DNA from: a virus
Reading direction: 5' to 3' (one strand)
IMG/VR virus record: IMGVR_UViG_2166559002_000003
Span: 1 to 39,442 of that record
Length of the DNA stretch: 39,442 nt
Each line of letters starts with the position of its first letter. Position 1 is the stretch's first letter. The translations under genes and the position numbers were made by a program. The notes below the pieces were generated by a model that saw nothing but the letters and a program-made list of their open reading frames with translations, was not told where the DNA came from and did not search any database. Positions 2,577 to 39,442 of this stretch are shown here, in pieces.

Positions 2577-2919
2577 TGAGGCCCTCCATCAAGACGGGCA
2601 CCGCAGCCACCTCCACCGCCATGCGGGGCAGCGCTGCCTCGTCCAGGTCCTTGATGCGTTGTCTCAGCTCCAGGGCGGCCTCGCGGCGGCCGATCGCGCG
2701 CTGGCCAAGCTCCCCTTCGGGCGTCGCCCCGTACAGCCGGCCCACGTCGTCCACGAGCCAGCCGAGCACCCGCAGCCCCTCGACCGTAGCCAGCACCGCC
2801 TGCAGGTCGCGTCGTAGTCGCGCTTCGCGCGCCACCGCCACCTGCGTGTCGAAGCTCGGCGGGTCGGGGTTGCCACGGCGGGCACGGGCCATCGGCCCTC
2901 CAGGGGTCCGATCGATCAC
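2569..2919 (-). CDS. Conserved hypothetical protein, 116 aa, helical
   Basis: A mostly helical protein encoded immediately after the portal. A GTG at 2917-2919 overlaps the portal stop (GTGA). An internal ATG at 2890-2892 has a better ribosome binding site (GGAGGG) and would give 107 residues. Residues 25-110 are rich in Arg, Glu, Leu and Ala (LRRDLQAVLATVEGLRVLGW; ALELRQRIKDLDEAALP) and may form a coiled coil. Small helical genes between portal and scaffold in BPP-1-like phages are usually of unknown function. A virion or assembly role is inferred from position only. Confidence 0.6.
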   Translation of the reverse strand: MIDRTPGGPMARARRGNPDPPSFDTQVAVAREARLRRDLQAVLATVEGLRVLGWLVDDVGRLYGATPEGELGQRAIGRREAALELRQRIKDLDEAALPRMAVEVAAVPVLMEGLNA

Positions 2920-6629: not shown

Positions 6630-6642
6630 CGCTGGGCTCTGC

Positions 6643-6843
6643 CTATGCGTCGCCGCCCTGCTCTGCCTGCCGCCGGCTGTCCTCCAGGATCTGCACCAAC
6701 AGCAACGCCGGCGGCTGGGCCTCGGGGGCCTCCACCGGCATGAGACCGCCCTGGCCGTCCGGCACCACCAGCCCGGGATTGCCCGGCGGGGGCTGCGTGG
6801 GCGAGGGCAGGTGGCCCACGACCCGGTTGTTCGGCTTGTCCAT
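6643..6843 (-). CDS. Small hypothetical protein, 66 aa, between the terminase genes
   Basis: A Pro-rich small protein starting at the ATG at 6841-6843 (MDKPNNRVVGHLPSP), with a strong Shine-Dalgarno (GGAGGGACC) directly before it. The C-terminal third (ALLLVQILEDSRRQAEQ) looks helical. The same frame is open up to a GTG at 6970-6972 that touches the small-terminase stop. That would add 43 residues containing three DTW repeats encoded by the 9-bp tandem repeat. The strong ribosome binding site makes the short form more likely. The function is unknown; it may assist terminase. Confidence 0.55.
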   Translation of the reverse strand: MDKPNNRVVGHLPSPTQPPPGNPGLVVPDGQGGLMPVEAPEAQPPALLLVQILEDSRRQAEQGGDA

Positions 6844-6921
6844 GGTCCCTCCACGGTGGGAGGGCTCCGGGGATGGACCATCCTGGCCTACCGGCCTGGC
6901 GCGATCCACCCCGGCCACGCG

Positions 6922-7774: not shown

Positions 7775-8161
7775 ATGATCGCGGAGCCGGCCCAGAGCTC
7801 GGCCGCGGCCATCGACGCCTGGCTGCCAGCACGCGGCGCGATCCTGGCCCAGCTCGGCGCTGCGAGCCGGCTGGTCTTCATCAACCGCGCCGGGCGGCAG
7901 TTGCACGCCTCCCACTGGAACGAGCGGCTCAAGCGCTACGCGGCCGCCGCGGGGCTGCCCAGCTGGGTCAGCAGCCACAAGCTGCGCCACTCCTTCGCCA
8001 CCCACATGCTGGAGGGTGGGGCGGACCTGCGGGTGATCCAGGAGCTGCTGGGTCACTCCAGCCTGGCCACCACCCAGCTCTACACCCACGTCTCCAACGA
8101 GCACCGACGCCGCGTCTTCCGCGCCAGCCACCCGCTCTCACACCCGTACACCGGGGTCTAG
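7775..8161 (+). pseudogene. C-terminal remnant of a XerC/XerD-type tyrosine recombinase
   Basis: The 128 residues from ATG 7775 (or 134 from GTG 7757) match only the catalytic C-terminus of Xer recombinases. A bounded strand reads [13 protein letters not shown]. Then come [20 protein letters not shown] (the H..R box), [20 protein letters not shown] (the second His and the Tyr nucleophile) and the Xer-typical tail ending ASHP. The N-terminal core-binding domain, the first catalytic Arg and probably the active-site Lys hairpin are absent. Homology starts about QDRVRIADP, where full-length Xer proteins have their Lys hairpin. Upstream in frame there is only non-protein-like sequence. It could be a captured host xer fragment left by an attachment or recombination event, or a minimal protein that is still expressed. 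Catalysis by itself is unlikely. Confidence 0.75.
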
Positions 8162-16717: not shown

Positions 16718-19687
16718 TCAGACCTCCGTGATATGCACCACCTCGTCCACACCGTCAGGGCTGCGCACCCAGACGGCCCCCTTGCCAGCCAGGCGGCGGG
16801 GCTCGGGGTTGCCGACCAGACCGCCGGCACGCGGGTGAACTGGCATCGGGACACCCGCCACCGTGCCGTCGGGCGCCGTGTAAGCGTCCTCGGTCACCAG
16901 GGTCTCCACCAGGCGCGGACCCAGAAGAAACACGTCCTCGTTGTCAGCCACGGCCGAGGCCAACCCCGGGGCGAAGGTGATCGAGGAGGCCGTGTCGCTG
17001 TCCGTGGTGTTGTCCACCGATCGGATCAGGTACTCGGTCCCCAGGTCGCCCTTCAGAACGAAGCGCTCGCCCACCCGGGGCAGCGGCTTGATGTGCCCGG
17101 CGCCGTTGTCCAGCACCAGGCTGGTGGCCGCGGCGAGGGCGCTACCCTTCGACAGGCAGGCGCCAGGCGCCCGGGCGGTCCCCGGGCCGTAGTCGCCGAA
17201 CGAGATCACCTCAACGTGGCTCTCGCGCAGGGGGTTCGGGGCGGCCGCCAGCACCCAGGGACTGGCCTGCTGCGCCACGGCCAGGTGCGCCTGGATGTAG
17301 TCGGCCATCGACCGCCAGCGGGTCGTGAAGTCCGAGATCACCGCGTCGATCTGACGGACGGCCCCGTTCGCCACGGCGTTGAGATCGACGAACTCTTCCT
17401 TGGTCACCACCGTGTAGGCCAGCGGGCACATCTTCATGAGCCAGTAGTGCGCATAGGAGCTGTGGGCCGATTTGATGCCCTGCCCGTCGGTGCCCACATA
17501 TCCGAAGTTGCTGCCGTAGGCCGGCGCCGCCAGCACCTCGGGCTCGATGCCCGCGTTGCAGGAGGCCCAGACCGGCATGGCCGCGTTCTCCGCCGCCAGG
17601 CCGAGCCAGCTGCCGCTGGCGGGCCACTGGCTGTCCTGGTTCGCGTAGTACACCGGCGAGAGCAGCAGCGACAGGTTGCCGTCGACGGCGGTCTTCACGT
17701 CGTCCGCCGGAACGTCCCACGCCCCGCTGTTCTTGAGCGCCAGCTGCCAGGCCGCCGGCCCGCCGTTGGCCAGCACCTTGCGCCAGGCCACCATGGTCAT
17801 GAGCGGGTTGGCGATCGCCAGGCAGTTGGGCCGGGTGCTCTCGGCGCGCTGCCCGCCCGCCGCGATGTTCTCGGCGATCAGCGCCTTGTCCCCCGAGAGC
17901 CCGCACCACTGGACCAGCTGGGCGCCCGAACTGCCGCCGTACACGGCCAGGCGGGAAGGGTCGATCGGCAGCTCGTCGCCGCCCGACCCGCCCCCGATGC
18001 CGAAGTACTTCACGTGCTGCACGATCCACTCGGCAGCCCGCCAGGGCGTCAGGAACTCCATGTCGAGCCACGGGTGCGTCCCCGCCCAGCCCGACGGTAG
18101 GGCGCCCGGGTAGGGGGTCGCCGTCGCCGGACCCCCATCGACCTGCACCATGGCACCGTTGCCGCGCACGTAGGCCGCACCGAACTGGCCATTGGACGGG
18201 TTGAAAGTCGCCTCGCTGGTCAGGATCCCGGTCGGCCCACCGCGCACCGCCGGCGCAGTGAAGGACACGATGGCGATGCCTAGCTCCAGAAGCATCTTCT
18301 GCGGCACCTGGGCCGCCCCGATGGACGTGAGCAGGCTGTCCTGGATGTAGCCCTGGCTGCTGCTCCAGAGGCACGCCGGGTAGCCGCCAGGCGGCATCGG
18401 GAAGCGCACCGGGTCCGGCAGGATCCCGTTGCAGCGCAGGATCGGGTGGCTGGTCACCCCGGCCGGCTCGTACTGGCGATTCGTCCAGCCGTTGGGGTTG
18501 GGGGAGCTGGGCGTCCAGGTCTGCACCGTGCCCGCCGACGTGATCGCCATGCTCACCGTGCGCGGCCGGGCTGCCTGGCGCAGCGCCTTCCAGGGCTCTC
18601 GCCGGTGGAAGTCCGCCACGTCGAAGCGCTCGCCCTTCACGACCGCCTCATCCACCTGATCGAGGAAGGTCACGGCATCCCGCACCGCCGGCGTGTCCGC
18701 CGTGCCCACGGTGCCGGGCACCTTGAGCATCAGATCGCTGCCATGGGTCGGCGCGAAGCCGTCCCCCGACACCGCCAGGGAGCGCACGCGATCCGGCCAG
18801 GCCCGGCGAGCAATCTCCACCCCCAGGATGGAGTTGTTGCTCGCCTCCGTGCCGGGCGGGATCGGGTCTCCCCCCAGCGCTTCGAACACGACGCCCGTGG
18901 CCGCGTAGGCCGAGGCCATCCACATGGGAGGCATCCGGGCACCCTTCAACGCCTTGCTGTACTCGGCGAAGAAGAACGGGCTGAAACCCTCCAGGTACTC
19001 CGCCGACAGGTCGCCCAGGATCGTCGCCGGCGTGTCGGGCGCCCCGTCCTTCGCAGCCACGGCGAAGCCAAGCCCCAGGGACAGGCTCGGCAAGTGCACA
19101 GTGCCCTCCAGCGTGACCAGGCCGGCCAGGCGCGGGTCCCATCCGTACTGACGATCGACCGCCCGGTCGCCGTACTCCGCTTCGACCCAGGGACGCAGAG
19201 CACCCCAGCAGAGCGACTGGAACCCTGTCCCTGAGGACAGCCCGAACATCCGATCGGGGTCGATGTTGTAGGCCGCCGCGTTCTCTTTCAGGAACTGCAG
19301 GGCGTAAACGATGTCCTTGTTGTACGCCTGGCGGGTCTTGTCGCCGAAGTTGGGATGACTCGGCAGGTGCGCGGCCCCGGCGCCCGTGATCGCAGCACCG
19401 GCCACGGTCAGGCCGATCGACACCACCACCCAGCCCCGCCCCAGCGCCTCGTTGCACATGATGTCATCGAACAGCACCGAATCGTCGTCGTAGCTGCTCT
19501 TCACCGTGGAAGCCGTCCAGCCGTTGAAGACCACGTGCACCAGGCACGGACGCGGGCGAGTGGGGCCGCCCGCGGCGTTCGTCACCCCGGTGCCAGCGAA
19601 CACGCTCAGACGCTGGCCCGAGTGGCTGGTCACGTCCGAGGGCGTGTAGTCCAGGGACGGGGCGATCGGAGTCCAGGTCTGGGTCAT
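16718..19687 (-). CDS. Tail-associated protein with two tandem alpha/beta-hydrolase domains
   Basis: 989 residues, between the ejection region and the lysis genes where podoviruses carry the receptor-binding tailspike or fibre. The sequence is internally duplicated. Residues 1-27 (TQTWTPIAPSL...DVTSH) align with residues about 388-414 (VQTWTPSSPNP...GVTSH). Each copy continues into an esterase-like fold with a GxSxG nucleophile elbow: DRMFGLSSGTGFQSL near 149 and RLAVYGGSSGAQLVQW near 580. Candidate acidic and His residues follow in each. Residues about 840-989 form a separate beta-rich C-terminal domain (LSKGSALAAATSLVLDNGAG onwards). It probably removes acyl groups from, or cleaves, host surface polymer during adsorption. 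The substrate is unknown; polyester-depolymerase-like activity cannot be excluded. The start ATG follows a 96-base gap. Confidence 0.75.
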   Translation of the reverse strand: MTQTWTPIAPSLDYTPSDVTSHSGQRLSVFAGTGVTNAAGGPTRPRPCLVHVVFNGWTASTVKSSYDDDSVLFDDIMCNEALGRGWVVVSIGLTVAGAAITGAGAAHLPSHPNFGDKTRQAYNKDIVYALQFLKENAAAYNIDPDRMFGLSSGTGFQSLCWGALRPWVEAEYGDRAVDRQYGWDPRLAGLVTLEGTVHLPSLSLGLGFAVAAKDGAPDTPATILGDLSAEYLEGFSPFFFAEYSKALKGARMPPMWMASAYAATGVVFEALGGDPIPPGTEASNNSILGVEIARRAWPDRVRSLAVSGDGFAPTHGSDLMLKVPGTVGTADTPAVRDAVTFLDQVDEAVVKGERFDVADFHRREPWKALRQAARPRTVSMAITSAGTVQTWTPSSPNPNGWTNRQYEPAGVTSHPILRCNGILPDPVRFPMPPGGYPACLWSSSQGYIQDSLLTSIGAAQVPQKMLLELGIAIVSFTAPAVRGGPTGILTSEATFNPSNGQFGAAYVRGNGAMVQVDGGPATATPYPGALPSGWAGTHPWLDMEFLTPWRAAEWIVQHVKYFGIGGGSGGDELPIDPSRLAVYGGSSGAQLVQWCGLSGDKALIAENIAAGGQRAESTRPNCLAIANPLMTMVAWRKVLANGGPAAWQLALKNSGAWDVPADDVKTAVDGNLSLLLSPVYYANQDSQWPASGSWLGLAAENAAMPVWASCNAGIEPEVLAAPAYGSNFGYVGTDGQGIKSAHSSYAHYWLMKMCPLAYTVVTKEEFVDLNAVANGAVRQIDAVISDFTTRWRSMADYIQAHLAVAQQASPWVLAAAPNPLRESHVEVISFGDYGPGTARAPGACLSKGSALAAATSLVLDNGAGHIKPLPRVGERFVLKGDLGTEYLIRSVDNTTDSDTASSITFAPGLASAVADNEDVFLLGPRLVETLVTEDAYTAPDGTVAGVPMPVHPRAGGLVGNPEPRRLAGKGAVWVRSPDGVDEVVHITEV

Positions 19688-19783: not shown

Positions 19784-20104
19784 TCAGATGGTCTCCGTGC
19801 CGGCCTCCTGCTCGCCCGATTCGCTCCCCGTGTCCTTCTTCACCTGGTAGGGCATCCAGCAGCAGTACCCCGCCCGGTGTCTGTTGGGCGGGAGGTATGG
19901 GTTCTCATCGACATCCGGCTGCACAAGCGGCACGCTGGCGTGAGGGGATGGATCGCCGGACGTGCCAAACACGCAGAGCGACACCAGGTTGTCGTTGTGC
20001 ACGGAGACCACCAGGGCCGCCAGAGGGACACCGTAAGGGCCGAGGGTGAGCTCGTGCTGAAGGGGGTAGTAGTGAACGACGCGACCGACGGTGGGCTTGA
20101 TCAT
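19784..20104 (-). CDS. Conserved phage hypothetical protein, 106 aa
   Basis: ATG 20102-20104 with GGAG seven bases upstream. KPTVGRVVHYYPLQHELTLG, LAALVVSVHNDNLVSLCVFG and YCCWMPYQVKKDTGS follow the pattern of a small beta-rich phage protein ('PTVGR.V.Y.P......AAIV..VH.D..VNL.VF.......WMPYQ'). I recall it only as a hypothetical protein, often near tail or lysis genes. It may be a virion or tail accessory; no catalytic residues are evident. Confidence 0.65.
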   Translation of the reverse strand: MIKPTVGRVVHYYPLQHELTLGPYGVPLAALVVSVHNDNLVSLCVFGTSGDPSPHASVPLVQPDVDENPYLPPNRHRAGYCCWMPYQVKKDTGSESGEQEAGTETI

Positions 20105-20290: not shown

Positions 20291-20953
20291 TCAACGCTTC
20301 CGCGGCGCCCCGACCAGCACGGCGGAGATCGGAGCCTCCCCGTCCAGCCAGGCCCGCGCGCCCCGGTAGCTCTCCATGGCCTGCGTCATCGGGAGGTGGG
20401 CCACGATGCCCGACAGTGACAGGAATGCCCGGACAGCGGCCTCGTCCATCTCCCCTTGAGCCGCCTGCGCCCAGGCGTTCATGCCCTCCTGCAGCACGCC
20501 GGCTCCGGCTGTCCCCTGGTAGCGGAACCCCCGAGCCGCGGCCCCGAACTCCCTCAACCCCACCCAGAGGCCCAGCACCTCGGCTGCCGTCCGCCGGGCT
20601 GTCTCCTTGAGGAACGGCTCGTCGTCATCGTCCCCGCGGAGCATGTGGGTCATGATCTGTTCCCAGATCATGGGCGCGATGAAGATCAGGGTCATTTCCA
20701 TCGCCCAGCGAGCCACCGTCTTCGGGTCGCGCACCTTCATGCGCGCCGTGGACTCGGCCGTCAGGTTCAGGGTGCGGCTTGCGAACCCGTAGAACGTGGT
20801 CCACATCTTCTGCCACTCGCTGCCCCGAGCGATGCCGGCCATCTCGGCGACGCGCCCGCTGCCCTGGCTGGCCACCACAGCAGCGTCCGCAAGCTCGATC
20901 GCCACGGGATCCCAATCCAGCGGGTCGTGCGCCTTGCCAGCCGGCGGCAGCAC
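20291..20953 (-). CDS. C-terminal continuation of the giant polyvalent protein in the -1 frame
   Basis: From the G6 run at 20953-20958 the protein-like sequence leaves the long frame and continues in the -1 frame: VLPPAGKAHDPLDWDPVAIE, then ADAAVVASQGSGRVAEMAGI, WQKMWTTFYGFASRTLNL and a hydrophobic helix (ARWAMEMTLIFIAPMIWEQI), to TAG-side residues ISAVLVGAPRKR. The 220 residues match the helical, partly membrane-like C-terminal domain typical of large phage polyvalent proteins. The long frame instead gives Arg/Trp/Ser-rich sequence and stops at 20767. No ribosome binding site or start is seen for independent translation, so this is either reached by frameshifting or separated by an indel. 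Confidence 0.8.
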   Translation of the reverse strand: MLPPAGKAHDPLDWDPVAIELADAAVVASQGSGRVAEMAGIARGSEWQKMWTTFYGFASRTLNLTAESTARMKVRDPKTVARWAMEMTLIFIAPMIWEQIMTHMLRGDDDDEPFLKETARRTAAEVLGLWVGLREFGAAARGFRYQGTAGAGVLQEGMNAWAQAAQGEMDEAAVRAFLSLSGIVAHLPMTQAMESYRGARAWLDGEAPISAVLVGAPRKR

Positions 20954-23900
20954 CCCCCGGCCTTCTCGTAGGCCGCGATCCAGCTCGGCAGGTCCACCAT
21001 GGCCTGAGTGAAGGCCAGCAGGGCGAAGCTGCTGCGCTGGATCGCCCCGTGCACGTCTCGGCCTCGGGACACCTGAGCAAAGCGCCGGTACTGTTCCGCC
21101 ACTTCGCGCTGGAACGTCTTGTCGCGGTTGGCCATGGAGCTGCTGGCCTGTATGACCTGGTGGTAGATGGCTGCCACCTGCAGAGGCTGGGAGGCCAGCC
21201 GGGTGATGGCTCGCAGCACAGGGATCGGCCCGGACACCACCATCGACTGCGTGATGCCACCCAGGTTGATGAGGTTCGTCGTGATCCGCCATCCGAGCCG
21301 CATCACGATGGTGCCGGCCCGCATCTGGCCGAAGACACGCGCTCCCGCGTCGTTCAGGGCGCCCGTGCCCATGGCCATGTCCCGGTAGGCGTTCAGGAAC
21401 TGCCGGTAGACCGCCTCCCCGTAGCGCTCCTCGATCGCCAAGCGGACAGGCTCTCCGTGCAGCACCGCCTGCATGTCCCGCAGCGCTTCGAGGTGAGTGA
21501 TCATGTGAACCGCCTCGGCCAGGTGTCCCGTCACCACGCCGAAGTCCAGCCGCAGATGGTCGTTCACGTGCCTCGCGCGCTCGATCATCGAGCCGGCCTT
21601 GGTGGACACCCGCGTTGCCGTCCCGGTCTTGAACCGCTCCAGCTGCTGCTCCGGGCTGAGCTCATGGATCCACTTCGCCCCCGCGTACTTGATCCGGTGG
21701 TAGCCGCCCTGCCAGCGCACGGTCTCGCCACTCGGGCTCTTGGACGCGAAGGCGGTGGCCGGCACCTTGATCGGGGCGATGCCCTTGATCCGTTCCCAGA
21801 GCGCCTTGCTCTCCGGCCAGAAGCTGTTTTCCAGGTCCCAGATGATGGCGGCCATCTGGGCGTGCCGCGGCTCCAGCGTGTCCAGGATCGCCTGCACCTG
21901 GCGCGAGTCGAACGTTGTGAGCAGCCGCTCTCGCCCCTCCCTGTTGCCGTTGTTGAGCGCCACCATGAAGCGCTGCTGAAGGGACAGCGGGATGTCCACC
22001 CCAGGGATCTCTCGCGGCCGACCCCACTCCCGACGATCCTCGTCGGTGAACAGCTCGCGCATGGCACTCAGCTGCTCGTTGATCCGATCGGCGTGGGCCA
22101 CCTCGGCGTTTTCGGCACGAATCCCAGGACGCACCAGGAACTGACTCAGAGGCCCGTCGTCCGAGCCGTCGATCTGTCGTGCCAGGCTGTCGATCGCCCG
22201 GTGGGCCGAGCTGAAGTGAGCCAGCTTTCCCTGCCGCTCCTGGTACGCGATCTTCCGCGGCGCTCGGCTGTGCTCGACCCGCCTCGCCACCGCTACCTGG
22301 GCATCCTCGGCGCGCATCCGGCGCCGCACGGTGGTCATCCAGCCCTTGCTCTGCCCGAAGTGACGCACCTGCTTCCAGGCGTCCATCACGTCCTCGATCT
22401 GATCCACCGTCAGGTCGGTGTAGAGCACCCGGGCCTCGGGCCGGTCGTCCAGGATCCAGGGCATGATGTCCGGCGCCAGCTCGCCCGCCTTGTCCAGGGA
22501 CGCCAGCCAGCCGGCCAAGGACATGGTGGGCTGCAGGTCGGGGTTGCTGTACTGCCGTTCCAGGCCCACGCGCTGCAGCAGGCGCAGCAGCTGCCGGCGG
22601 GCCTCCACGCTGCCCCGGCCCACGCCCGCCATGATGTCCTTGCGGCGCAGGAACTTGGCGTAGTCGATCAGCTTCTTCAGCGCCTTCTCGGCGACCAGCG
22701 CCAGGCGGAACGATTCGTAGTTGAACAGCTCCCGCTCCTTCGCCTGGGCCGCCGCGTAGAACTCGCCTTTCCTGACCAGCGCGGCCGATTTGCTGCTCTC
22801 CCGGCGCGCCGCGGCCAGGAAGGCGTTGGGACGGATCCGATTCACGGGCAGCGAAGCCATGGCGGCGGCTGCCTGCTTGCGGATCTGCGGCAGCGTCTTG
22901 GCGCCGGGCAGGGCGCGCCGGCGGTGGGTCACCTGGGGGGCCACCGCGGAGCCGGCCATGGTGGCCGTCGCCTGCCCACCCTCAGCCAGGTCCGCCCGCC
23001 GGCGGAGCAGCCGGCGGTACTCGCTGAAGATCCGGCGAGATCTCGATTCGGTGTCCCTGGCCCGCCTCTGGAGCGCCCTGATCGAAGCCGTGCCCATGAG
23101 CTCAGGGTGCTGCTCCTGCAGCGCCTGGCGGGCCATGCGGTCCACCACGTCATCGCGGCGCTCGGCCACGGTCACCATCCCGTTCAGCAGCACGTCGGCA
23201 GACCGCGCACCGAACGATTCAGCGGCCTCGGCCGGGGTCATCCCGTCGTCGGCAAGAACTCCCATCCCCTCCAGCGCAAGCGTCAGGGATCCGTCCTCGC
23301 CGTACTCCGCCTCGACGGCCGCGCGCGACAGCTTGCCCTGGGCCGATGCGGGCAGGTGAGTCCCGTCAGGGTGCTGCCCGTCGCGCATGTTGGCCAGCGC
23401 CACGGCAGGGGGCGTGTTGCCCAGCTCCTTGGACGCCTTGCGGCGCAGCGATGCCATGCGCCTGCTCCGCTTCTCCTTGACCAGCTCGGCCAGACTCATC
23501 GCGGTCGCTCGGCCCGCCGCCACCACCCCGTCCGCCTCATCGTCCGACACACTCTTGAGGTAGGCGGCTCGGTCCGCCTCCGACAGATCCGCGAGGGTGT
23601 CCTCGGGCAGCGGCTCGGCCGTCAGCTCGTACCGGTCGGCCGCGATCTCCTCGTCCGTGGCCAGCATCCGCTCGAACACCCCGCGGATCTCAGGCGACAG
23701 CTCGAACTCGAACCCCGCGGCCCGGTAGATGCCCTTGATCGAGTCGTAGAGCGCCGTCATCCAGCTGTGAATCGCCGCGAACGCCCCGCGCAGCTTCTTC
23801 GACGGCGCCTTGCCATCCATCAGCCAGGCCTCGAAGGTCCGCGCGATCTTCTCGTGGTGTGCTGTCGTCAGCTGGCTTACGTGACTCACCCCGACGTAGG

Positions 23901-26900
23901 CCAGCAGCTCGTGGAAGTCGTCCACCACCGCCTGGGGCGCGCCGTCTCGGGCCGCCAGGTCGCCCATGATCGTCGTCCACACGTGGGCCATCTCGTGCAG
24001 GAAGGTCGAGCGGTCCCGCGAACGGAACAGCTGGATCAGGAACGCACGCCGTCCGGTGGAATCCATGGCGCCGAACGTCGTGGCGCCCTGCGGGCCGCCA
24101 TCCGGCGCGGCCCCACCCTGCCGTTCACCCTCCTCGGGCTGCTGAAACAGAGGGAAGCCGCGCTGCAGGGCCGCGTCGCGCAGCTCCTTCGTGAGGGTGA
24201 ATCCGTGCTGCTGATCCTTCGGAGGGCGACCCTCATCGTCCCGGGCATCGTCGGGCATGTCCATCCGCTCAACCTTGGCGCCGTACTTCTTCACCAGCTT
24301 GCGCGCCACCTGGGGCAGGATCGCGTCGTAGAACGACCGCATCCCCTTGCCGCCGACCTGCAGGTCCTTCTCTTTGTAGATCCGCCCGGGCACGTACGCA
24401 GGATCGGTCAGCTGCTCCGCGTCGGTCAGGCGCCCCGCCGCTTCGTTGACCGCATCCACGGCGTCCTGCTTCACCGTGGTGCCCATCACATTCTCCATGA
24501 ACCGACTCTCAGGGTCCTCGACGATTCGGAGCAGGCTCACCCGCCTTCTCTCCACCAGGTCACGCAGCTCGTCGCGCGAGAGGGCTTCTGGTGATAAGCG
24601 GGCCGCCATCGCCACGTCTTGCGCCACCAGGCTCAGCACCGTGTCCTCCAGCTCGGTGACACCCTTGAAGTGTTGACCCTGACCGTAGAGCAGGCCGTCC
24701 GCCAGCAGCTGTAGGGGCCGGTCCTCATCCCCTGACAACACCATCGCTTCGCGCCCGCCCTCCCGGTTCAGGAACCGCTCCGCCATCTCTTTGCCGATCA
24801 CCGATTCCAGTGAGTGATCTGTGTACTGGTGGGCGTTTCTCCCGAACGCCCTGACAACCTGACCGGTCTCGTTCACAACAACATCCATGGCCGGATCCAC
24901 TGAATGCTGCTCCTCGCTGGTCAACCTGATGAGCCCGTTGCCCGCATCGGTGACCCGGATGCTCTCAACGAAGTGAGACAGCTCGTAGCGCTCGTTCTGG
25001 ACCGCGCCGCTGGTCCACATCACGCGATCGAACCCGTTTTCCGCGGCCAGCCGGATCACGCGCTTCAGAGCCAGGCTGGTCCACTCCTTCGTACGTGTCA
25101 CGAACGGCCCGGAATCGACAGCATCTTCCGGCTCCAGCTCCAGTAGCTCGCCAGTCCTGAAGGCGCTCTCTCGCAGCGCCAAGCTGGCTGCCTCGGTCGA
25201 GCGCCCGAGCAGCTGCACGACCGACATGGCCTGGACGTGACTCAACGCCTGCTGCAGGTCGTCACGCCACACGTAGCCCGGAAGCGGCGCGCGCAACAGT
25301 GGGGACCGGAACTCTACCTGTGGATCTCCGCCGTCTGGGGACGGGACCCTCACCAGCTCCAACGACTCTGCGATCCGGTGTGCCAGGGCCTGCCGTGCCA
25401 CCTCCGTGGCGTCCTGGCTCGCTTCGTAGTCTGCGCGGATCCGCTCTTGGTCGGCAGCGGAGTAGAACCCCTCCTCGCGCCCACGCTGTGCCCAATCCGA
25501 CTGCACCTCCTCCAGGAACAACACACGCTCGCCAGTCTCGGAGTCGATCCGCGTCTTGAATCGCACGTGGGCCAGCACCGATCCGCCCATCGGATTGAAG
25601 TGCTGGCCGTGGAACGTCGGCGCCCCTTCTGGGGAGGACGGCAGCACCAACAGAAGCTCCCGGTAGCCCTCACCGCCGGACAAAGAGTACTGCTCGAACA
25701 GATACTCGTCGGCGTCTACGTCTTCCACGCGCACCTGGTGGGCATCCATCCACTCCACCACCTCGCCCGTGGTCGGTGCGCGATGCAGGGTGTCCTTGAA
25801 GTCCTGCACGTAGCCGCCCACGTCGAGCCACTTCAGCTCCTCGGCCTTCACGCCCCGCTTCCGCAGAGCCGCCTCGATCTGCGCCTTGCTCCAGCGCGCA
25901 TCCTTCGGCAGCCCCCGAGCGGCATCCAGGGCCTTGCTGTAGAACGGGTCCGCCGGAGCCGGCGCCGGCCCCTGGAACAGCCGCTGGTACAGGGTCTTGC
26001 CCTCATCCACCTCCATGATCTCCTGGCCGGCCATCACGGCCGCCGTGGCCCGGGCCATCCCCTCTCCGGTCGGGATGAAGTAGCGCCGCTTGTACTGGTG
26101 CGTCTCCATGAACACGCCGGCCTTCTCCAGCACCGGCAGGTTGGCGAAGGTGGGACCGATCACCTCGATCCGTCGCTCGCCGGCCACGGTGACGGGCTTG
26201 ATCTGCCAGTGGTTGGTGAGCGTGAAAGTGGACCCGCGCAAGACGATCGGACCCACCTCGGCGGGCGCTATCTCGATCTTCCGCCGGCCCACCCCCAGCT
26301 TCCGCTTGGTGGAGTCCACCAAGCCGTCGGGGACCTCCCGCCCGATCACCTTGCGCCCGTCGGGCAGCGTCGCCCGGTAGACCTTCCCGAAGTCGGGCAG
26401 CCGGTCCCAGATGGGTAGCAGGAGCCCCGTGACCAGGTTCACTTCACGTGTCGCCTCGTTGGGCGCTGCGGCGTACTGCTTGCGCCAGAGTCCCGCTGCC
26501 TCGTCATTCGTTGCGCGGCGCCAGTTGCCTCTCCTGGATCCCTCGCGGAGCAACGCGGTGGACACTCGATCACCGGTCCCTCCCGGACCGTGCATCACAC
26601 GCACGAGCGACGCCACGCCAGACTTATCGGTGTCCGTGACGCTCCGGCCGGCTGCCCACACCCTACCCGAACGGGTGTTTACGAAGAAGTCCTGCCAGTA
26701 GACCCGGGCCTTGGCCCAATCCGTTTTCGGGACTGGGTTGGTGACATTCAACGTCAGCCAGTGGGTCTCGTTGCCTGTGCGCTCATCGACGCGGACCACA
26801 TCGTCCTGCTCGACCGTGAGCCGGTCCGCCTTTAGCTCCTGCATCCCCGAATCGAACGTCCCACGCGCGATGGCCGACTCAATCTCCGCGTCCAGGTTGG

Positions 26901-29900
26901 CGCTGAACTGGTCGAACAGCGCCACCTGGCGGTCCGGTCGAAGCGAAAGCATCCGGTTTAGGAACTGCGTCACCTTCGGGTAGCCGCCTTCGTTGACCGT
27001 CCCGTCCTTGCTGATCAGCGAGTGCAAGCCCATCTCGTCGGTGAGGCTCTTGGCGTCCCACCCCTCCACGCGCCCCTCCAGAATGGCGTTGATCGTCCAG
27101 CGCACGGCGGGCGCCGAGTAGGGTCCCTCCAGGTTGTCCCGTTCGCTGAAGACGGACGCACCCGCCGTTCGCTGCCCCCGCGTCAGCGCCCCCAGCTGCT
27201 CGATGCGGCGCGCCACCGAGCTGATGAACCGCTTGTGACCAGGCAGGTTGGTGGTCACCAGGATGTACTCGGGGGGCTGGGCCTGGTTGCTGCGGTGAGA
27301 CCGGCCGAAGCCCTGGATCGTGATGTCCGCTCGCCACCCGGGCTGCATCACGTAATGCCGGCGCAGCTGCTGGTTCTTCGCCTTCAGGTCCGCGTGGTAG
27401 CCGGCCCCCGTGCCTCCCGCCATGCTGAACAGCAGCACCCGCTTGCGCCCCGCCTGGAAGTCCGCGATCGAAGCCGCGTTGGCCTTCGCCGGGTTGCGCT
27501 TGACGACCACCTGCTTGCCATCGCGGTAGACGATCTTGTTCTGCCGCGCCGTCACCTCGGCGATGGCGTCGTCTCCCAGCTCCCGAGCCAGGAACTCGAT
27601 CGGACCCATAGAGATCGGCAGCTCCATCACGTCGGCGATCAGGGCGTCCCGCTTCGCCACACTGTCCGGGTCCTGCACGAAGTCCCCCTCCGAGTGCACC
27701 ACCCTCCCGTGCGCGTCGGTCACGTCGGTCATGTACTGCCTGGGGACCCAATTGTCCTTGCCGTCTTCGGTCGGCTGGTTCTCATACTGCTGCGTAGGGA
27801 ATGCCTGCTTCAGGTAGTTGATCAGCACTTCCTTCGGCGACACATCTAGCTCCTCGTCGTCCACCACCTCGCCAGCGGCCTCGGCCTTCTTCCGCGCAGC
27901 GACCGCACGCTTCAGCGCCGCCTCCTGGTGTGTCGTCAGCTGCAGGATCACCGATCGCCCGGCCGCCAGGTCCTTCTTGATCCCGGCTACCATGGTGGGC
28001 ATCTGCAGAGAGATCAGCAGCTGGTCGTAGAACCGCAGATTCGCGCTCCAGAACGCGCCGACCTTCTGACCCCGCGCGTTGCCCTTGTCGGCCCCGGTGT
28101 CCTTCATGACCTCGTGCATGTTCTGCAGCGCCACCTGCCAGGCGTCTGCTGCGCGCTCGTACATCAGCGTCTGCTCGGGCGTCAGCTCGTGCTCCATGCG
28201 CTCGTAGGTGACGCCCTTCATGCTGATCGTGCGCGCCGTGTACAGCCCCTGCTGCTTCAGCTCGCTGGCCACCTGTTCCATGGCTGCCAGGCCACCCGTG
28301 GCGATCTTCTCTACGAACTCCATCGCATTGGGGAACGGCGTCCCGATGCCCCAGAGGCCCAGCCGCTCGGCGTAGCCCAGGTTCGCCACCTCCGTGGCGC
28401 CCGTCGCGCTGGCGTACACCACGCGCGCGTTCGGGAAGGCGCGCTGCAGGAACAGCCCGGCCTTGGCGCGAGCCGAAGCCCCTTTGCTGCCGCGCTCGCC
28501 TTCGACCCCCAAGGCCCTCGACATGAAATGGCTCTCGTCAAAGACAATCACCCCGTCGAAGTCTGGCCCCAGCCACTCCACCAGCTGGTCCAGCCGCGTC
28601 TGCTTGCCTTCCGCCTTGCTGCGCTGCTCCTTCAGGTCTCCAGTGAAGGCCGCACCGCTCTTGAGCGCGTCGTAACTCAGGAACGCCACACCATCCTTGT
28701 CCGGCATCCGGTCCTGGGCACCCACCTTGCGGACCTCGATCAGATTCGAGTCAACCGGCCCGAAGTCCGCCCAGCCCTTCATGGCGTCGGCGAACAGCGA
28801 GGGCTTGGCGGACAGCCAGACGTGACGCCGGCGCCCCTGCCGGATGTTGTCGCGGATGATGCCGATGATCTCCCGGGTCTTCCCAACCCCCGTGCCGTCG
28901 CCGATCATGAATCCGCGCCGTGTCACTCCGTCGGGCAGCACCTGGTCGTGCGCCTGCCCGGCGAACACCACCGTCTCCAGCTGCGCATCCGACAGCGCTG
29001 CCATCTCCTCATCGCTGAGCGTCGGCTGGTAGGTGGGCGCGGGCCGCTTGGCAGCCTTCATGGCCGCCGACTCCACCAGATCGGCCGGATGGGGCACAGG
29101 ACCCTCCGGCCGGCTCACCACGCTGGCGTACTCCTCGAAGACAGCGCCCTCTTCGGCCTGGTCTGCGCTGGCCTCCTCGATCACCTCGATGCTGGCCGGG
29201 TCGTCCGGCTCGGCGAGCCGTGGCGCAGCCGGCTCAGCGGCTACGGGGGCGTCGCGTGCAGCGGGTGCGTCTGGCGGGGTGGCCAGTTGTCCCTCTGGCT
29301 GCCCAGCAGCTCGTTCAGGTGCTCCACCAGGTCGTCCGCCATCTCCTGCGGCTCCTGGCTCCGCCACTCCTTCGGCAGGCGCCCCAGGTCCCTCAGCGCC
29401 TGCAGGGCCTCTTCCTTGCCCCTCCACGACCGTTCGATCAGCTGGTCGGCCACCAGCTGCATCACCGCTCCCGCGTGCTCGTTGAGCATCGCCCCCGACT
29501 CCTCCGCCCGAGTCAGCCCCAGCTTCAGCAGGAGCAGCACGGGGGGCACCGTCGGATCCGGGGACGGGGCGCCCAGCGCCTCCAGTGCCTTCTCCGCTGC
29601 CCGGTTGTCCGGGTCCTGGAACAGCGCGTCGGCCTTCATGGATCAGATCCTCCAGTCCCGATAGTAGCAGCGATGGCGAACCCGCGGGGTCTGCAGCCGG
29701 GTCGAAGTGCGTGGACAGCCCCTCGGAGGGGGCCACGGCATCGAAGATCAGCACGTTGGTGCCGAAGGACGTGCCCATCTTCCGGTAGACCTTGCCGTCC
29801 ACCTTCACAACGGCGCGCAGCGAGTAGTTTGCCGCCATCTTGCGGAACCAGGCCGCGTAGCTCGGCGCGCTGGGGAGCATCCCCTCGCCCACGATGGCCA

Positions 29901-32900
29901 CCAGCCGGCCGCCCGGGAGGACCCGGCGCATGGCCTGCTCAATGTGCCGGCCCGCCACGCCCAGGTCATTCTTCACGCCCCGGTGACCGGCGTTGCTGAA
30001 CGGGGGATTCAGGATCACCACCGAAGCGTGCACGTCGGCGGGCAGGACCGCGTGCAGCGCCTCGGCGTCCTCGCCGAACACGGTCTCCACGCCCAGCTCA
30101 TGCAGCAGCGCCGCGCGCAGCGGGTCGATCTCGTTGGCGATCACCCGGGCGCCCGACCGGATCGCGGGCGCCAGCAGGTTGCCAGTGCCCGCCGAGGGCT
30201 CCAGCACCACGTCGCCGGCGCCGAGGCCGGCCAGGATCGCCACGGTCTGGGCGTAGTCCTGGGGCGTGCTGAACTGCTGGAAGGCTTCTTTGGTGCCCGT
30301 CCGACGGGTCTGGGTAGGGATCCGACCCACGATCGCGCCGATCTCCTCGATCGCGGCCAGCAGCTCGGGCAGGGTCGCGTCGGGATCCAGCGGCGGCAGC
30401 CGGGCCACCCGGCGGTTCACGGCGAACTCCGTCGCGTTGGCCAGGTCCTGGGCGTCGTAGATGCCCTGGGCCATCGTCCCGCCGAAAGCGCGGTTGGCCA
30501 GCTCCTGCAGGTCGCGCCAGGTCAGGGCCTCGTCGCCGTCCAGCACCAGGTCGAGCGCGTTGGCCAGCCGGCGCGCGGCCGCGATCTTGTGGGGGACCGA
30601 CTCCGAGACGGGTGCCTGGGGCGGGCTCGGGAGGGGCTCCTGGCCCGTCGGGGGCTCGGGGGTGTTGGGCACCGCATCGACGGGCGAGGCCGGTTCCTGG
30701 GCAGCCGTGGGCTGGTCTGGCGCCTGCTGGGTACTACCGGAGGGTGTTGCCTCGTCCGCGCGGCCCGGTGCTGCCGGAGCATCCGGCGCCGGTGAGGTGG
30801 ACACGGGCTGTCCACCCGGGGCGGCGGCCGGGGCGGCCGGGGCAGCCGGGCGGCTCAAGGGCTCTGCGTCCTGGGGATCGGGCGGTGGAGGGGAGGGGAA
30901 CTCCTCCGCCAGCACCGGGTCCCGGGGCGCCGGGGGCTCGGAGGTGGACACACGCTGTCCACCTGGCGTGCCGATAGCGGGTTCCCGGCTGCTTATAGGC
31001 ACGCTATCGGCAACGCCGGGCACCCCAGACGGATCAGAGGAAGGCCCGGGAACAGCCTTTCCAGGCCCTGATTCCGGCGTTGCCGCCGGCTTGCCGATAA
31101 CGGCTTCGCGGCTGCCTATAGGCACGCTATCGGCATTCTCCGGCGCGGGTGCGGTGGGATGCTCCTTGTCCACCTGCGCGGCGTCGGCGCCCTGGATGTC
31201 CACCGGGAACAGCTGGTCGATCTCCTCCTCGGTCAGGCCGTTGCGCTCCGCGGCCACCCTCACCATCTCGGTGAAGGTGAGCGCCATCACGCCCGCGTCG
31301 TCCTCGCTGAAGGACCCCTCGCGCACCAGCATCTCCTGCACCCGGCGCAGGCGCTCCTTGCGGCGCTTGCGGCGCGCCACCCGAGCGTCGGCCATGTCCT
31401 GCAGCCGGCGGTCGATCAGCGCCCGGCGCTCCCGGGCCGCGGCCAGCTCGGCGGCCGCTTGGTCGTTTGGATGCTTGTCGTCCATCCCGGCCGCTTCTTC
31501 GCGGTCGAGCTGTCCCTGCTCCAGCCTGATGATGGTCTCGTCCAGGGTGGCCGCTTCAGAGCGCAGGTCGCGCTCGTCTGCACTGAACACGGCTTCCTCG
31601 GCCGCGCTGCGCTGCGCCACGGTCGCGGCCGTCTGCTCCGCGCGGGCCTCGGCGATCAGCTCCTGGATCCCCGGTAGCTCGTCTTCCGCCTCCGTCAGGG
31701 TCGGCCCGTCCTCGCGCAGGCGGGCCACCTTGATCAGCTCCTCGGGGTCGGTGGTCTGGGACAGCTCCAGCAGGGAGTCAGCCAGCGGGATCTCAACCTG
31801 GCCGCTGCTCGTGGCGCGCGTGTAGGCATCGCGCCCCCCCTCGGAGATCCGCGCGGCCTCTTCGGCCGGCGACTTGCCCTGCTCGGCCCAATGTCGATTC
31901 CACTTGTCCAGGTCCACCCGAACCACGCCCGCGTCGGGGTCCGAATCGGTCAGCTGGCTCTCCAGGTACGACGCCGCCTCAGCCCGCCGGCGGCCAGCTA
32001 GCTTCGAGTCCCGCAGCGCCGCCGCCGCCCGGCGCACGCTGTCGGCGTCCTGGTGCGCCGTCATGCTCTTGGTCAGCGTCTCCAGCTTGGCCTGGTGACG
32101 ATCTGCCTGGGTCCGGTGGTGGTAGCCGAGGCCCACCTCGACCACCGCGTGCGGGCCGGCGACGCCCGCTTCCATCAGCGCCTCGCCGAGCGGGTCCCCA
32201 GCGAACCCCTTGCGCGCCGCCACGTGGCTGACGAACTCGCCGGCGAACTCACCGCCGACGTTGAACGCACCTTCCGTCACCGCCGCCCGCACGATCTGGC
32301 GCTTGGTGCCCCCCGCAGCCTTGGCCAGCCAGTGACCGCCGATCCCCATGGTCAACGTCTCGACCACGCCGACCACGAAGCCCTTACGCTTGGCCTCGCC
32401 GAGCGCCTGCTTCATCCAATCCTGGTCCCGGTACTTGGCCAGGATCGCCGCGCCGTCGTGCAGGTTCACGTTGTCCCGCTGCAGGGCGTCGGTGATCCAG
32501 GCGCCCATCTCGACAGCCATAACCCCGCTGAAGGTGCCCACCACCCCACCGATGGCACCACCGGCCACGGCCCCCGCGGCAGCTCCCTCGGGACCCAGCA
32601 GGGCGCCGTAGGATCCGCCCATCTCCGCGCCCGTGCCCGCTCCCAGCGCCGAGCCGGCCACGATCGGGATCATGTTCCCCAGCTGGCCCAGGCTCTCGGC
32701 AGCCAGGCCCTCCAGGTTGGACGGCAGCACCAGCAGCTTCTCCCATCCCTTCGCAGCAGCTAGGCGACGCCGATAGGCCTTGATGTCTGGATCCGCCTTG
32801 GCCCGCTCCTGGTCCGCCCGCCGGTAGGCGTCCGCCGCGGCGTAGGCGGCTCCCTCCAGCCCGCCCGGCCCGATCCCGAAGATCGCCGTCAGGTGATGCA

Positions 32901-33591
32901 CCCCAGGCTCCAGGTCGAGCGCTCCCTGCTTGGTGCTCGCCACCATCTCGTCGAACCAGGAGCGCTCCGGGCGGAACGTGGACAGCGCGTCGTTCAGGCG
33001 GTAGAGCGACTCCAGGTCGTCCTGCGCCATCGCCGCGTGGTCACCGTTCTGCAACCACGCCGACAGGCGGGGGGCAGCACGAATGATCGCCCCGTAGTCG
33101 TGCTCCGCGGCGTATCGGAACGCCAGATCCTTGCTCTCGGCAATGGCCATCCCGGCTGGCCGAGGCAGCCCCAGAACCTCGGAGATACGCAACGCCCGAG
33201 CGTGTTGGTCCGGGTCGATGCCCGAGACGGCATTGAGGACCCGCCCCGTGCGTGCCGCCTGAGCGTTCAGGTAAGCCTGAACACCAGGGCTCACGGAAGG
33301 CCCGGATGGATGAGCGCCCGGCGGCAACGCGGGCATTCGGAGTGGCTCGTCAGGAATCCGCTGGCTGGCGAACCCGTCCAGCAGCAGGGGGACGGAAGCC
33401 GGCCGCGGGGGCTGCTTGCCGTTTTCGATCCCACCTGGCCCCCGGGCGGGGCGCGGCTGGAGCGTGAAAGGATTGGGGCGTGCGACCTGTACGGCGCGGC
33501 CGCGGCGACCCGGCCGATTCCCAGAGGGGTGGTCCCCGTCCCCGGGATCAGGCCCCGGCGTCGGCCCCAGCACTGGTACGCGCGGCGTCAC
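20767..33591 (-). CDS. Giant polyvalent ejection protein: methyltransferase, Strawberry-notch helicase, EVQSDW module, zincin
   Basis: 4274 codons from GTG 33589-33591 (GAGGA six bases upstream), or about 4433 residues with the -1 extension. Approximate order: an FRYAAEHD module (150-215); Gly-rich hydrophobic segments (280-400) suited to membrane insertion; coiled coil (655-755); Pro-rich linker (815-1000); an N6-adenine-type methyltransferase with EPSAGTGNL (about 1131) and NPPF (about 1195); a low-complexity linker (1315-1450); an SF2/Strawberry-notch helicase with GDGTGVGKT (about 1563), DESH (about 1680) and QGFGRSHRSNQ (about 2092); a VTGLLLPIWDRLP region; an LPD-type module with FLEEVQSDW (about 2693); a metallopeptidase with STFLHEMAHVW (HEMAH 3199-3203); and a long helical C-terminus. 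Polyvalent proteins like this (DarB-like fusions) enter the cell with phage DNA and counter host restriction or remodel the DNA. Its place after gp14/gp15-like genes equals that of T7 gp16. Confidence 0.85.
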   Translation of the reverse strand: MTPRVPVLGPTPGPDPGDGDHPSGNRPGRRGRAVQVARPNPFTLQPRPARGPGGIENGKQPPRPASVPLLLDGFASQRIPDEPLRMPALPPGAHPSGPSVSPGVQAYLNAQAARTGRVLNAVSGIDPDQHARALRISEVLGLPRPAGMAIAESKDLAFRYAAEHDYGAIIRAAPRLSAWLQNGDHAAMAQDDLESLYRLNDALSTFRPERSWFDEMVASTKQGALDLEPGVHHLTAIFGIGPGGLEGAAYAAADAYRRADQERAKADPDIKAYRRRLAAAKGWEKLLVLPSNLEGLAAESLGQLGNMIPIVAGSALGAGTGAEMGGSYGALLGPEGAAAGAVAGGAIGGVVGTFSGVMAVEMGAWITDALQRDNVNLHDGAAILAKYRDQDWMKQALGEAKRKGFVVGVVETLTMGIGGHWLAKAAGGTKRQIVRAAVTEGAFNVGGEFAGEFVSHVAARKGFAGDPLGEALMEAGVAGPHAVVEVGLGYHHRTQADRHQAKLETLTKSMTAHQDADSVRRAAAALRDSKLAGRRRAEAASYLESQLTDSDPDAGVVRVDLDKWNRHWAEQGKSPAEEAARISEGGRDAYTRATSSGQVEIPLADSLLELSQTTDPEELIKVARLREDGPTLTEAEDELPGIQELIAEARAEQTAATVAQRSAAEEAVFSADERDLRSEAATLDETIIRLEQGQLDREEAAGMDDKHPNDQAAAELAAARERRALIDRRLQDMADARVARRKRRKERLRRVQEMLVREGSFSEDDAGVMALTFTEMVRVAAERNGLTEEEIDQLFPVDIQGADAAQVDKEHPTAPAPENADSVPIGSREAVIGKPAATPESGPGKAVPGPSSDPSGVPGVADSVPISSREPAIGTPGGQRVSTSEPPAPRDPVLAEEFPSPPPPDPQDAEPLSRPAAPAAPAAAPGGQPVSTSPAPDAPAAPGRADEATPSGSTQQAPDQPTAAQEPASPVDAVPNTPEPPTGQEPLPSPPQAPVSESVPHKIAAARRLANALDLVLDGDEALTWRDLQELANRAFGGTMAQGIYDAQDLANATEFAVNRRVARLPPLDPDATLPELLAAIEEIGAIVGRIPTQTRRTGTKEAFQQFSTPQDYAQTVAILAGLGAGDVVLEPSAGTGNLLAPAIRSGARVIANEIDPLRAALLHELGVETVFGEDAEALHAVLPADVHASVVILNPPFSNAGHRGVKNDLGVAGRHIEQAMRRVLPGGRLVAIVGEGMLPSAPSYAAWFRKMAANYSLRAVVKVDGKVYRKMGTSFGTNVLIFDAVAPSEGLSTHFDPAADPAGSPSLLLSGLEDLIHEGRRAVPGPGQPGSGEGTGGAGRPVPGSDGAPRAAPAEAGADSGGGVGGDAQRARGSGDAAGGRPADRTVVEGQGRGPAGAEGPGAPAEGVAEPGAAGDGGRPGGAPERAAGQPEGQLATPPDAPAARDAPVAAEPAAPRLAEPDDPASIEVIEEASADQAEEGAVFEEYASVVSRPEGPVPHPADLVESAAMKAAKRPAPTYQPTLSDEEMAALSDAQLETVVFAGQAHDQVLPDGVTRRGFMIGDGTGVGKTREIIGIIRDNIRQGRRRHVWLSAKPSLFADAMKGWADFGPVDSNLIEVRKVGAQDRMPDKDGVAFLSYDALKSGAAFTGDLKEQRSKAEGKQTRLDQLVEWLGPDFDGVIVFDESHFMSRALGVEGERGSKGASARAKAGLFLQRAFPNARVVYASATGATEVANLGYAERLGLWGIGTPFPNAMEFVEKIATGGLAAMEQVASELKQQGLYTARTISMKGVTYERMEHELTPEQTLMYERAADAWQVALQNMHEVMKDTGADKGNARGQKVGAFWSANLRFYDQLLISLQMPTMVAGIKKDLAAGRSVILQLTTHQEAALKRAVAARKKAEAAGEVVDDEELDVSPKEVLINYLKQAFPTQQYENQPTEDGKDNWVPRQYMTDVTDAHGRVVHSEGDFVQDPDSVAKRDALIADVMELPISMGPIEFLARELGDDAIAEVTARQNKIVYRDGKQVVVKRNPAKANAASIADFQAGRKRVLLFSMAGGTGAGYHADLKAKNQQLRRHYVMQPGWRADITIQGFGRSHRSNQAQPPEYILVTTNLPGHKRFISSVARRIEQLGALTRGQRTAGASVFSERDNLEGPYSAPAVRWTINAILEGRVEGWDAKSLTDEMGLHSLISKDGTVNEGGYPKVTQFLNRMLSLRPDRQVALFDQFSANLDAEIESAIARGTFDSGMQELKADRLTVEQDDVVRVDERTGNETHWLTLNVTNPVPKTDWAKARVYWQDFFVNTRSGRVWAAGRSVTDTDKSGVASLVRVMHGPGGTGDRVSTALLREGSRRGNWRRATNDEAAGLWRKQYAAAPNEATREVNLVTGLLLPIWDRLPDFGKVYRATLPDGRKVIGREVPDGLVDSTKRKLGVGRRKIEIAPAEVGPIVLRGSTFTLTNHWQIKPVTVAGERRIEVIGPTFANLPVLEKAGVFMETHQYKRRYFIPTGEGMARATAAVMAGQEIMEVDEGKTLYQRLFQGPAPAPADPFYSKALDAARGLPKDARWSKAQIEAALRKRGVKAEELKWLDVGGYVQDFKDTLHRAPTTGEVVEWMDAHQVRVEDVDADEYLFEQYSLSGGEGYRELLLVLPSSPEGAPTFHGQHFNPMGGSVLAHVRFKTRIDSETGERVLFLEEVQSDWAQRGREEGFYSAADQERIRADYEASQDATEVARQALAHRIAESLELVRVPSPDGGDPQVEFRSPLLRAPLPGYVWRDDLQQALSHVQAMSVVQLLGRSTEAASLALRESAFRTGELLELEPEDAVDSGPFVTRTKEWTSLALKRVIRLAAENGFDRVMWTSGAVQNERYELSHFVESIRVTDAGNGLIRLTSEEQHSVDPAMDVVVNETGQVVRAFGRNAHQYTDHSLESVIGKEMAERFLNREGGREAMVLSGDEDRPLQLLADGLLYGQGQHFKGVTELEDTVLSLVAQDVAMAARLSPEALSRDELRDLVERRRVSLLRIVEDPESRFMENVMGTTVKQDAVDAVNEAAGRLTDAEQLTDPAYVPGRIYKEKDLQVGGKGMRSFYDAILPQVARKLVKKYGAKVERMDMPDDARDDEGRPPKDQQHGFTLTKELRDAALQRGFPLFQQPEEGERQGGAAPDGGPQGATTFGAMDSTGRRAFLIQLFRSRDRSTFLHEMAHVWTTIMGDLAARDGAPQAVVDDFHELLAYVGVSHVSQLTTAHHEKIARTFEAWLMDGKAPSKKLRGAFAAIHSWMTALYDSIKGIYRAAGFEFELSPEIRGVFERMLATDEEIAADRYELTAEPLPEDTLADLSEADRAAYLKSVSDDEADGVVAAGRATAMSLAELVKEKRSRRMASLRRKASKELGNTPPAVALANMRDGQHPDGTHLPASAQGKLSRAAVEAEYGEDGSLTLALEGMGVLADDGMTPAEAAESFGARSADVLLNGMVTVAERRDDVVDRMARQALQEQHPELMGTASIRALQRRARDTESRSRRIFSEYRRLLRRRADLAEGGQATATMAGSAVAPQVTHRRRALPGAKTLPQIRKQAAAAMASLPVNRIRPNAFLAAARRESSKSAALVRKGEFYAAAQAKERELFNYESFRLALVAEKALKKLIDYAKFLRRKDIMAGVGRGSVEARRQLLRLLQRVGLERQYSNPDLQPTMSLAGWLASLDKAGELAPDIMPWILDDRPEARVLYTDLTVDQIEDVMDAWKQVRHFGQSKGWMTTVRRRMRAEDAQVAVARRVEHSRAPRKIAYQERQGKLAHFSSAHRAIDSLARQIDGSDDGPLSQFLVRPGIRAENAEVAHADRINEQLSAMRELFTDEDRREWGRPREIPGVDIPLSLQQRFMVALNNGNREGRERLLTTFDSRQVQAILDTLEPRHAQMAAIIWDLENSFWPESKALWERIKGIAPIKVPATAFASKSPSGETVRWQGGYHRIKYAGAKWIHELSPEQQLERFKTGTATRVSTKAGSMIERARHVNDHLRLDFGVVTGHLAEAVHMITHLEALRDMQAVLHGEPVRLAIEERYGEAVYRQFLNAYRDMAMGTGALNDAGARVFGQMRAGTIVMRLGWRITTNLINLGGITQSMVVSGPIPVLRAITRLASQPLQVAAIYHQVIQASSSMANRDKTFQREVAEQYRRFAQVSRGRDVHGAIQRSSFALLAFTQAMVDLPSWIAAYEKAGGCCRRLARRTTRWIGIPWRSSLRTLLWWPARAAGASPRWPASLGAASGRRCGPRSTGSQAAP
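20953..20958 (-). other. G6 run at the frame change in the giant gene
   Basis: Minus-strand codons GCC GGG GGG TGC. Re-reading the last G gives GTG CTG CCG CCG and the natural C-terminal sequence. Slippage of tRNA-Gly on GGG GGG by -1 is possible at the second codon (GGG to GGG). A homopolymer sequencing error or a real inactivating insertion would look identical. Confidence 0.8.
29241..29639 (-). CDS. Nested 132-aa gene inside the giant gene, +1 frame
   Basis: ATG 29637-29639 is preceded by GGAGGATCTGATCC, a strong Shine-Dalgarno at a suitable distance. It opens a 132-codon frame with more than 90% G/C at third positions and balanced composition: MKADALFQDPDNRAAEKALE, a hydrophobic helix (VPPVLLLLKLGLTRAEESGA), AVMQLVADQLIERSWRGKEE and LEHLNELL-type helices to the TAG at 29241. 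In the same stretch the giant frame is only Gly, Ala, Pro and Arg, as expected for an out-of-frame reading. The gene therefore appears to be translated on its own, and the giant protein uses its shadow as a linker between methyltransferase and helicase. The function is unknown; a helical regulator or partner of one of those domains is a reasonable guess. Confidence 0.7.
   Translation of the reverse strand: MKADALFQDPDNRAAEKALEALGAPSPDPTVPPVLLLLKLGLTRAEESGAMLNEHAGAVMQLVADQLIERSWRGKEEALQALRDLGRLPKEWRSQEPQEMADDLVEHLNELLGSQRDNWPPRQTHPLHATPP
30796..30963. repeat. Two copies of a short palindrome GGTGGACA-N5-TGTCCACC
   Basis: Perfect 8-bp inverted repeats with a 5-base spacer occur at 30796-30816 (spacer CGGGC) and 30943-30963 (spacer CACGC). 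Both lie in the Pro-rich linker of the giant gene and encode GGQ(P/R)VSTS. The flanks also match (GAG before and CC after). They could form hairpins in mRNA. Confidence 0.85.
30969..31135. repeat. Two copies of an 11-bp inverted repeat (TGCCGATAGCG ... CGCTATCGGCA)
   Basis: Copy one (30969-31012) has perfect 11-bp arms and a 22-base spacer. Copy two (31092-31135) has the same layout with one arm mismatch. TATAGGCACGCTATCGGCA is identical in both. They encode ADSVPI(G/S)SRE..IG.P in the linker of the giant protein. The first starts only six bases after the second short palindrome ends, so the elements are clustered. Confidence 0.85.
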
Positions 33592-39277: not shown

Positions 39278-39278
39278 G

Positions 39279-39442
39279 TCAGTAGCCTCGGCGCGCCGTG
39301 ATCAGGCGCCCCGTCCGCCGCAGCGGCTCGTTCTCCTCGTTGGCGTTCTGCGCCTTGGCCGCCGTGAGCGTGCGGAAGTACTGCTGCTCGGCCGCGTCGG
39401 CCCGATCCGACCAGGCCGTGAACTCACGCGCGATCTCGGCCG
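39279..39442 (-). CDS. Partial gene, C-terminal 53 residues of a probable head-tail/tail tube protein
   Basis: The frame is open from the window edge to a TGA at 39279-39281, just before the nozzle gene start (1-base gap). The visible sequence is helical and polar (AEIAREFTAWSDRADAAEQQ, YFRTLTAAKAQNANEENEPL) and ends RRTGRLITARRGY. A gp11-like tubular tail protein A would be expected here, but too little is visible to assign a family. The start lies beyond the window. Confidence 0.6.
   Translation of the reverse strand, partial: AEIAREFTAWSDRADAAEQQYFRTLTAAKAQNANEENEPLRRTGRLITARRGY

Follow-up and report, generated by a model that had tools for sequence, protein, structure and literature searches.

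P0001, a 989-residue protein encoded in a virus record from IMG/VR, is probably the receptor-contacting tail protein of a podovirus of the BPP-1/epsilon15 type. It combines two diverged copies of a domain related to BD-FAE (PF20434; PDB 6tkx/6xyc), a bifunctional feruloyl and acetyl xylan esterase, with a C-terminal module of 170 residues. The second copy (domain B) would be active and the first (domain A) may be non-catalytic. The sequence analysed, referred to as the window, is the whole record of 39,442 bases. The open reading frame predicted at 16718-19687 exists there, but it is the minus strand that encodes it, since stops interrupt the plus strand. Its parts are as follows:

16718..19687, minus strand: P0001, two predicted alpha/beta-hydrolase domains and a C-terminal module (translation, Pfam BD-FAE, profile matches)
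18638..19687, minus strand: domain A, residues 1-350, modelled alpha/beta-hydrolase fold related to BD-FAE (model against 6xyc; independent profile, 49 bits)
17273..18523, minus strand: domain B, residues 389-805, of the same subfamily as A, catalytic residues kept (profile, 75 bits; homologs L103, L123 and L104)
16721..17230, minus strand: C-terminal module, residues 820-989, no relatives in Pfam, NCBIfam or related phages

The two copies of the original prediction are recovered as domains A and B, but the last 170 or so residues (820-989) lie outside both.

Domains A and B have a common ancestry, which is seen with profiles and not by direct comparison. When the halves of P0001 are compared by BLASTP, the sole significant match is a lead of 26 amino acids (E=0.007), the TWTP...VTSH segment already recognized in both copies, with QTWTP at residues 3 and 389. 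In five Planctomycetota homologs the first region aligns to this lead, which is therefore the start of the hydrolase fold and not a linker. A first profile, built from seven cellular BD-FAE-like proteins retrieved via A's motif, matches B at E=1.9e-4, with the next match at E=0.61 among 6,876 phage ORFs and shuffles. With B as the query against 392 genomes from the phylum to which a Gemmataceae MAG belongs (Planctomycetota), domain-wide homologs are found in L103 (E=6.5e-10), L123 (E=8e-10) and L104 (E=2.3e-6); in the same genomes, the best match of A itself is L128 (E=5.5e-10), the same protein as L109. An independent profile made from five Planctomycetota proteins (L103, L104, L105, L109 and L123), none of them from the window, matches both B (taken as 386-805; 75.2 bits, E=1.8e-21) and A (49.2 bits, E=1.4e-13) domain-wide, the next best of 6,876 background sequences being at E=0.39. 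Similarity beyond the lead, which BLASTP misses, is thus recovered over both domains. Pfam BD-FAE also matches two stretches of the whole protein (E=3.4e-8, 33.7 bits against a gathering score of 26.8), and each half alone falls under that score. Together with the model of A, these matches support the predicted tandem of diverged hydrolase domains.

In a tree, A, B and the five Planctomycetota proteins form one clade (99/99), the five having entered via B. The terminal branches of A and B are long and their relative position is uncertain, so that a duplication inside the phage and two separate acquisitions are both possible. Two alignments were set aside: MAFFT on A with B alone misaligned the elbows, and in a full-length alignment (A8) the homologs were laid over A while their ends were broken off and assigned to B. 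The five Planctomycetota proteins are secreted and have the GxS elbow and HxxW motif in common with B, but they are cellular and uncharacterised, carry a single hydrolase domain each, and have other C-terminal parts. No direct relatives of P0001 were found by tblastn in phage and plasmid records, nor by peptide patterns in IMG/VR or by its own patterns in GTDB genomes, such scans being blind to more distant kin. Three loci came out of a motif scan of viral contigs, all of them unrelated. The profile A7 (E<=1e-10) returned nothing from 199 Bacillota and 178 Bacteroidota genomes, Pseudomonadota being among the phyla outside this sample. Planctomycetota as origin or host is thus only a lead. One cellular Planctomycetota protein, L145 (568-2151, minus strand), also carries BD-FAE-like domains in tandem: of the two, one is of HHxxxG type and the other is classical.

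An AlphaFold2 model of domain A was made from 25 aligned rows (m7448520a6bd5; pLDDT 72.6, pTM 0.80), and in this model A is an alpha/beta-hydrolase, as the original prediction had proposed. It superimposes on the BD-FAE carbohydrate esterase 6xyc with Z 23.9 and rmsd 2.8 over 249 residues, followed by 6tkx (Z 23.8), Lip_vut4 (Z 22.9) and, lower, tannases. All of the chains compared with the model (1000/1000) reach Z>=8. Structural comparison was also done by Foldseek. Among viral proteins, an 'esterase/lipase' from Siphoviridae sp. ctBLh2 matches best. Domain B is predicted to have the same fold, as its profile retrieves generic BD-FAE-like proteins and B in turn matches such profiles. Single-sequence AlphaFold2 on the full P0001 gives no usable fold (pLDDT 34.5). 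The likeness to BD-FAE extends from the fold of A to the elbow region, an NIDPxR motif and the whole-protein Pfam match. The differences are that BD-FAE has one hydrolase domain whereas P0001 has two, that identity is about 17%, that the nucleophile of A is doubtful, and that the histidine of B lies in another motif than that of BD-FAE.

The positions on which catalysis depends are these:

19223..19243, minus strand: elbow region of A, residues 149-155 GLSSGTG (Ser151 at 19235-19237, Gly153 at 19229-19231)
17924..17938, minus strand: nucleophile elbow of B, residues 584-588 GGSSG (Ser586 at 17930-17932), aligned with the Ser of all relatives
17462..17464, minus strand: His742 of B, the conserved subfamily His (HxxW / HHxxxG motif), from the alignment
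18836..18838, minus strand: Asn284 of A, in the subfamily His column of the alignment

A GxSxG motif occurs three times in P0001, at 149 (GLSSG), 566 (GGSGG) and 584 (GGSSG). Shuffles of the protein contain 0.78 on average, with P(>=3)=0.044; the motif alone is near chance and thus weak evidence, and its count was rejected as an argument for hydrolase domains. Residues were compared in a 25-row alignment of A with 24 other rows. The nucleophile column holds Ser in 24/24 rows other than A, which has Gly153, and the column two before it holds Gly in the same 24 rows and Ser151 in A. Of the 17 rows with a residue in the subfamily His column, 16 have His; B has His742 in this column, and A has Asn284. 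Because Ser586 and His742 are both conserved, domain B looks catalytically competent, and GGSSG holds up as its elbow. The other predicted elbow, GLSSG in A, is possibly not one, or at least not in the standard register. The nucleophile position of A is probably Gly153, which would make A a degenerate copy. The claim of two esterases can therefore be kept for B, but for A both nucleophile and subfamily His are doubtful.

It is possible, though rather unlikely, that both domains are active, B by Ser586 and His742 and A by Ser151, Asp274 and His315, with strand beta5 two residues shorter, and that they attack two acyl groups or sites. GLSSG is indeed present in A, and the PDB match and the cellular profiles pick a gapped register (-2/+2) that saves Ser151. 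Before its two gap penalties this register reaches 29.1 bits, compared with 14.5 for the ungapped one; once the penalties are applied, the two appear roughly equal. His315 is on the loop after beta8, the classical His site, with Asp274 before it, and these residues could be members of a classical triad, both loops being of low confidence in the model. In BD-FAE the triad is Ser128-Asp237-His269 (PMC8165983). Arguing against an active A, the shortened beta5 is found in 0/24 relatives, a conserved Trp at +15 and Gly155 suit the ungapped register, and Asn284 replaces the subfamily His. The model of A also passes from a strand (142-152) to a helix (153-164) in a block with pLDDT 96, placing residue 153 at the elbow, the alignment fed to the model already carrying the ungapped register. 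As a separate observation made by eye, seven BD-FAE-like proteins (L145, L147, L150, L151, L152, L159 and L008) seem to be without the classical His after beta8. Instead, the same seven seem to share an HHPxxG-like motif ahead of the helix that precedes this site, so that the catalytic His may have been relocated.

The role of P0001 on the virion is suggested by its place among the late genes, which are on the minus strand and include internal virion proteins:

20767..33591, minus strand: giant internal virion protein, 4274 aa, BPP-1 Bbp10-like, upstream of P0001 (phrog_9880; tblastn to BPP-1 and Carin1)
5127-6881, minus strand: terminase
2916-4814, minus strand: portal
1600-2298, minus strand: protease/scaffold
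562-1575, minus strand: major capsid
36410-39277, minus strand: tail protein

By portal and tail protein, the nearest records, with identities of about 25-31%, are epsilon15/phiV10-, Ab31- and BPP-1-like podoviruses. Homologs of the giant protein by tblastn are BPP-1 Bbp10 and Carin1 gp32. In Carin1, a marine podovirus, the gene after gp32 is Dpo31, a validated tail spike of solved structure that depolymerises host exopolysaccharide; its N-terminal domain connects it to the base of the virion (PMC13317679). In BPP-1, Bbp9 and Mtd, which binds the receptor, come after Bbp10, and in two Manatee Spring podoviruses this slot holds a 'tail fiber protein'. The P0001 gene, after the giant protein and before the putative lysis genes, occupies the position of a tail spike or receptor-binding protein, in agreement with the tail assignment first proposed. 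Dpo31 has the same gene position as P0001 but is a trimeric beta-helix spike with a virion-linked N-terminal domain, and is without a hydrolase fold of this kind. A survey of the slot covered 81 ORFs, some of them not true genes, from IMG/VR relatives and five reference phages; Pfam identified beta-helix (13), pectate-lyase-like (12) and T7-tail N-terminal (PF03906; 11) domains, among others. No alpha/beta-hydrolase is present among the 25 Pfam families listed, of 30 matched by these ORFs, so that P0001 is unusual for its slot.

Several further observations concern the record itself. The C-terminal part of the giant protein shifts frame, phrog_9880 matching at 943-1986 in one ORF and at 1996-2210 in the next, and the continuation is in the frame of 20291-21292 on the minus strand; this is a frameshift, either genuine or sequencing-derived. 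At about residues 1093-1284 and beyond, the giant protein has a DNA-methyltransferase-like stretch (phrog matches) and, further downstream and judged by eye, a helicase-like part, which recall the injected anti-restriction proteins of DarB type. Between the giant protein and P0001, a 106-aa protein (19784-20104, minus strand) matches phrog_2293, of unknown function. At about 7868-8161 on the plus strand, an ORF matches positions 148-232 of the 301 of an integrase profile, which cover the catalytic, C-terminal half of a tyrosine recombinase; the upstream part of this ORF is without a match. In relatives, the gene for tail tubular protein A separates the capsid-side genes from that of the large tail protein. 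The record ends (1-24 and 39278-39442) leave no space for it, and thus some 0.7 kb or more seems to be missing there.

An improbable but less remote alternative than a polyester target is that P0001 is not on the virion at all, but is a soluble late enzyme, used for instance in polymer breakdown at release, or a moron inserted where the virion genes give way to those for lysis. The homologs of P0001 are soluble enzymes that are secreted, and its neighbours are small membrane-protein genes resembling a lysis cassette. At the N-terminus, domain A begins directly, and no virion adaptor (e.g. PF03906) was recognised there in Pfam or PHROG; the apparent lack of this domain, common in slot proteins, also counts against our best explanation. 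In favour of a virion protein, P0001 occupies the conserved slot of the tail spike, and the minus-strand late region shows no further large receptor-binding candidate.

For the receptor-contacting tail protein with an active B and a possibly non-catalytic A, a mechanism can be proposed. P0001 would be located on the virion at the tail tip, and during adsorption B would strip acyl groups (acetyl or aryl esters) from the host surface polysaccharide, with A mainly binding or positioning the polysaccharide. If Ser151 is used after all, A would instead attack a second ester. The polyester target once suggested, such as PHB, or any other non-polysaccharide surface polymer, is compatible with an alpha/beta-hydrolase fold but most improbable, because no PHB-depolymerase family matches in Pfam or NCBIfam at E up to 10, whereas the carbohydrate esterase BD-FAE exceeds its gathering score and is the nearest fold, before Lip_vut4 and then tannases; deacylation of a polysaccharide is likelier. 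More tentatively, one esterase copy may have lost its catalytic Ser (Ser to Gly) and may now serve to bind the very polymer from which its active tandem partner removes acyl groups. The same change, from catalytic Ser to Gly, is found in neuroligins among cholinesterase-like proteins. If this is true, an enzyme-derived lectin and its enzyme would be present on one tail spike, and the parts of this spike would come from a subfamily of secreted esterases which, in the genomes covered here, was met only in Planctomycetota.

By analogy, P0001 may be compared with the SGNH-type tail esterases (G7C gp63.1, Klebsiella prophage RBPs), for which virion-borne deacylation of surface polysaccharide is likewise proposed (PMC13123978); these belong to another family, have the usual fibre architecture, and are without tandem BD-FAE-like domains. 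The parts of P0001 are of known kinds, and their putative combination, in which BD-FAE-like domains stand in tandem in the tail-spike slot of a podovirus, was not found in the collections or literature searched. Since the tail esterases in the literature examined are SGNH hydrolases, such a protein would mean that phages use a further enzyme family to remove the sugar coats of their hosts. The split between an active and a degenerate copy, if true, would show a phage turning a borrowed enzyme into a receptor-binding domain.
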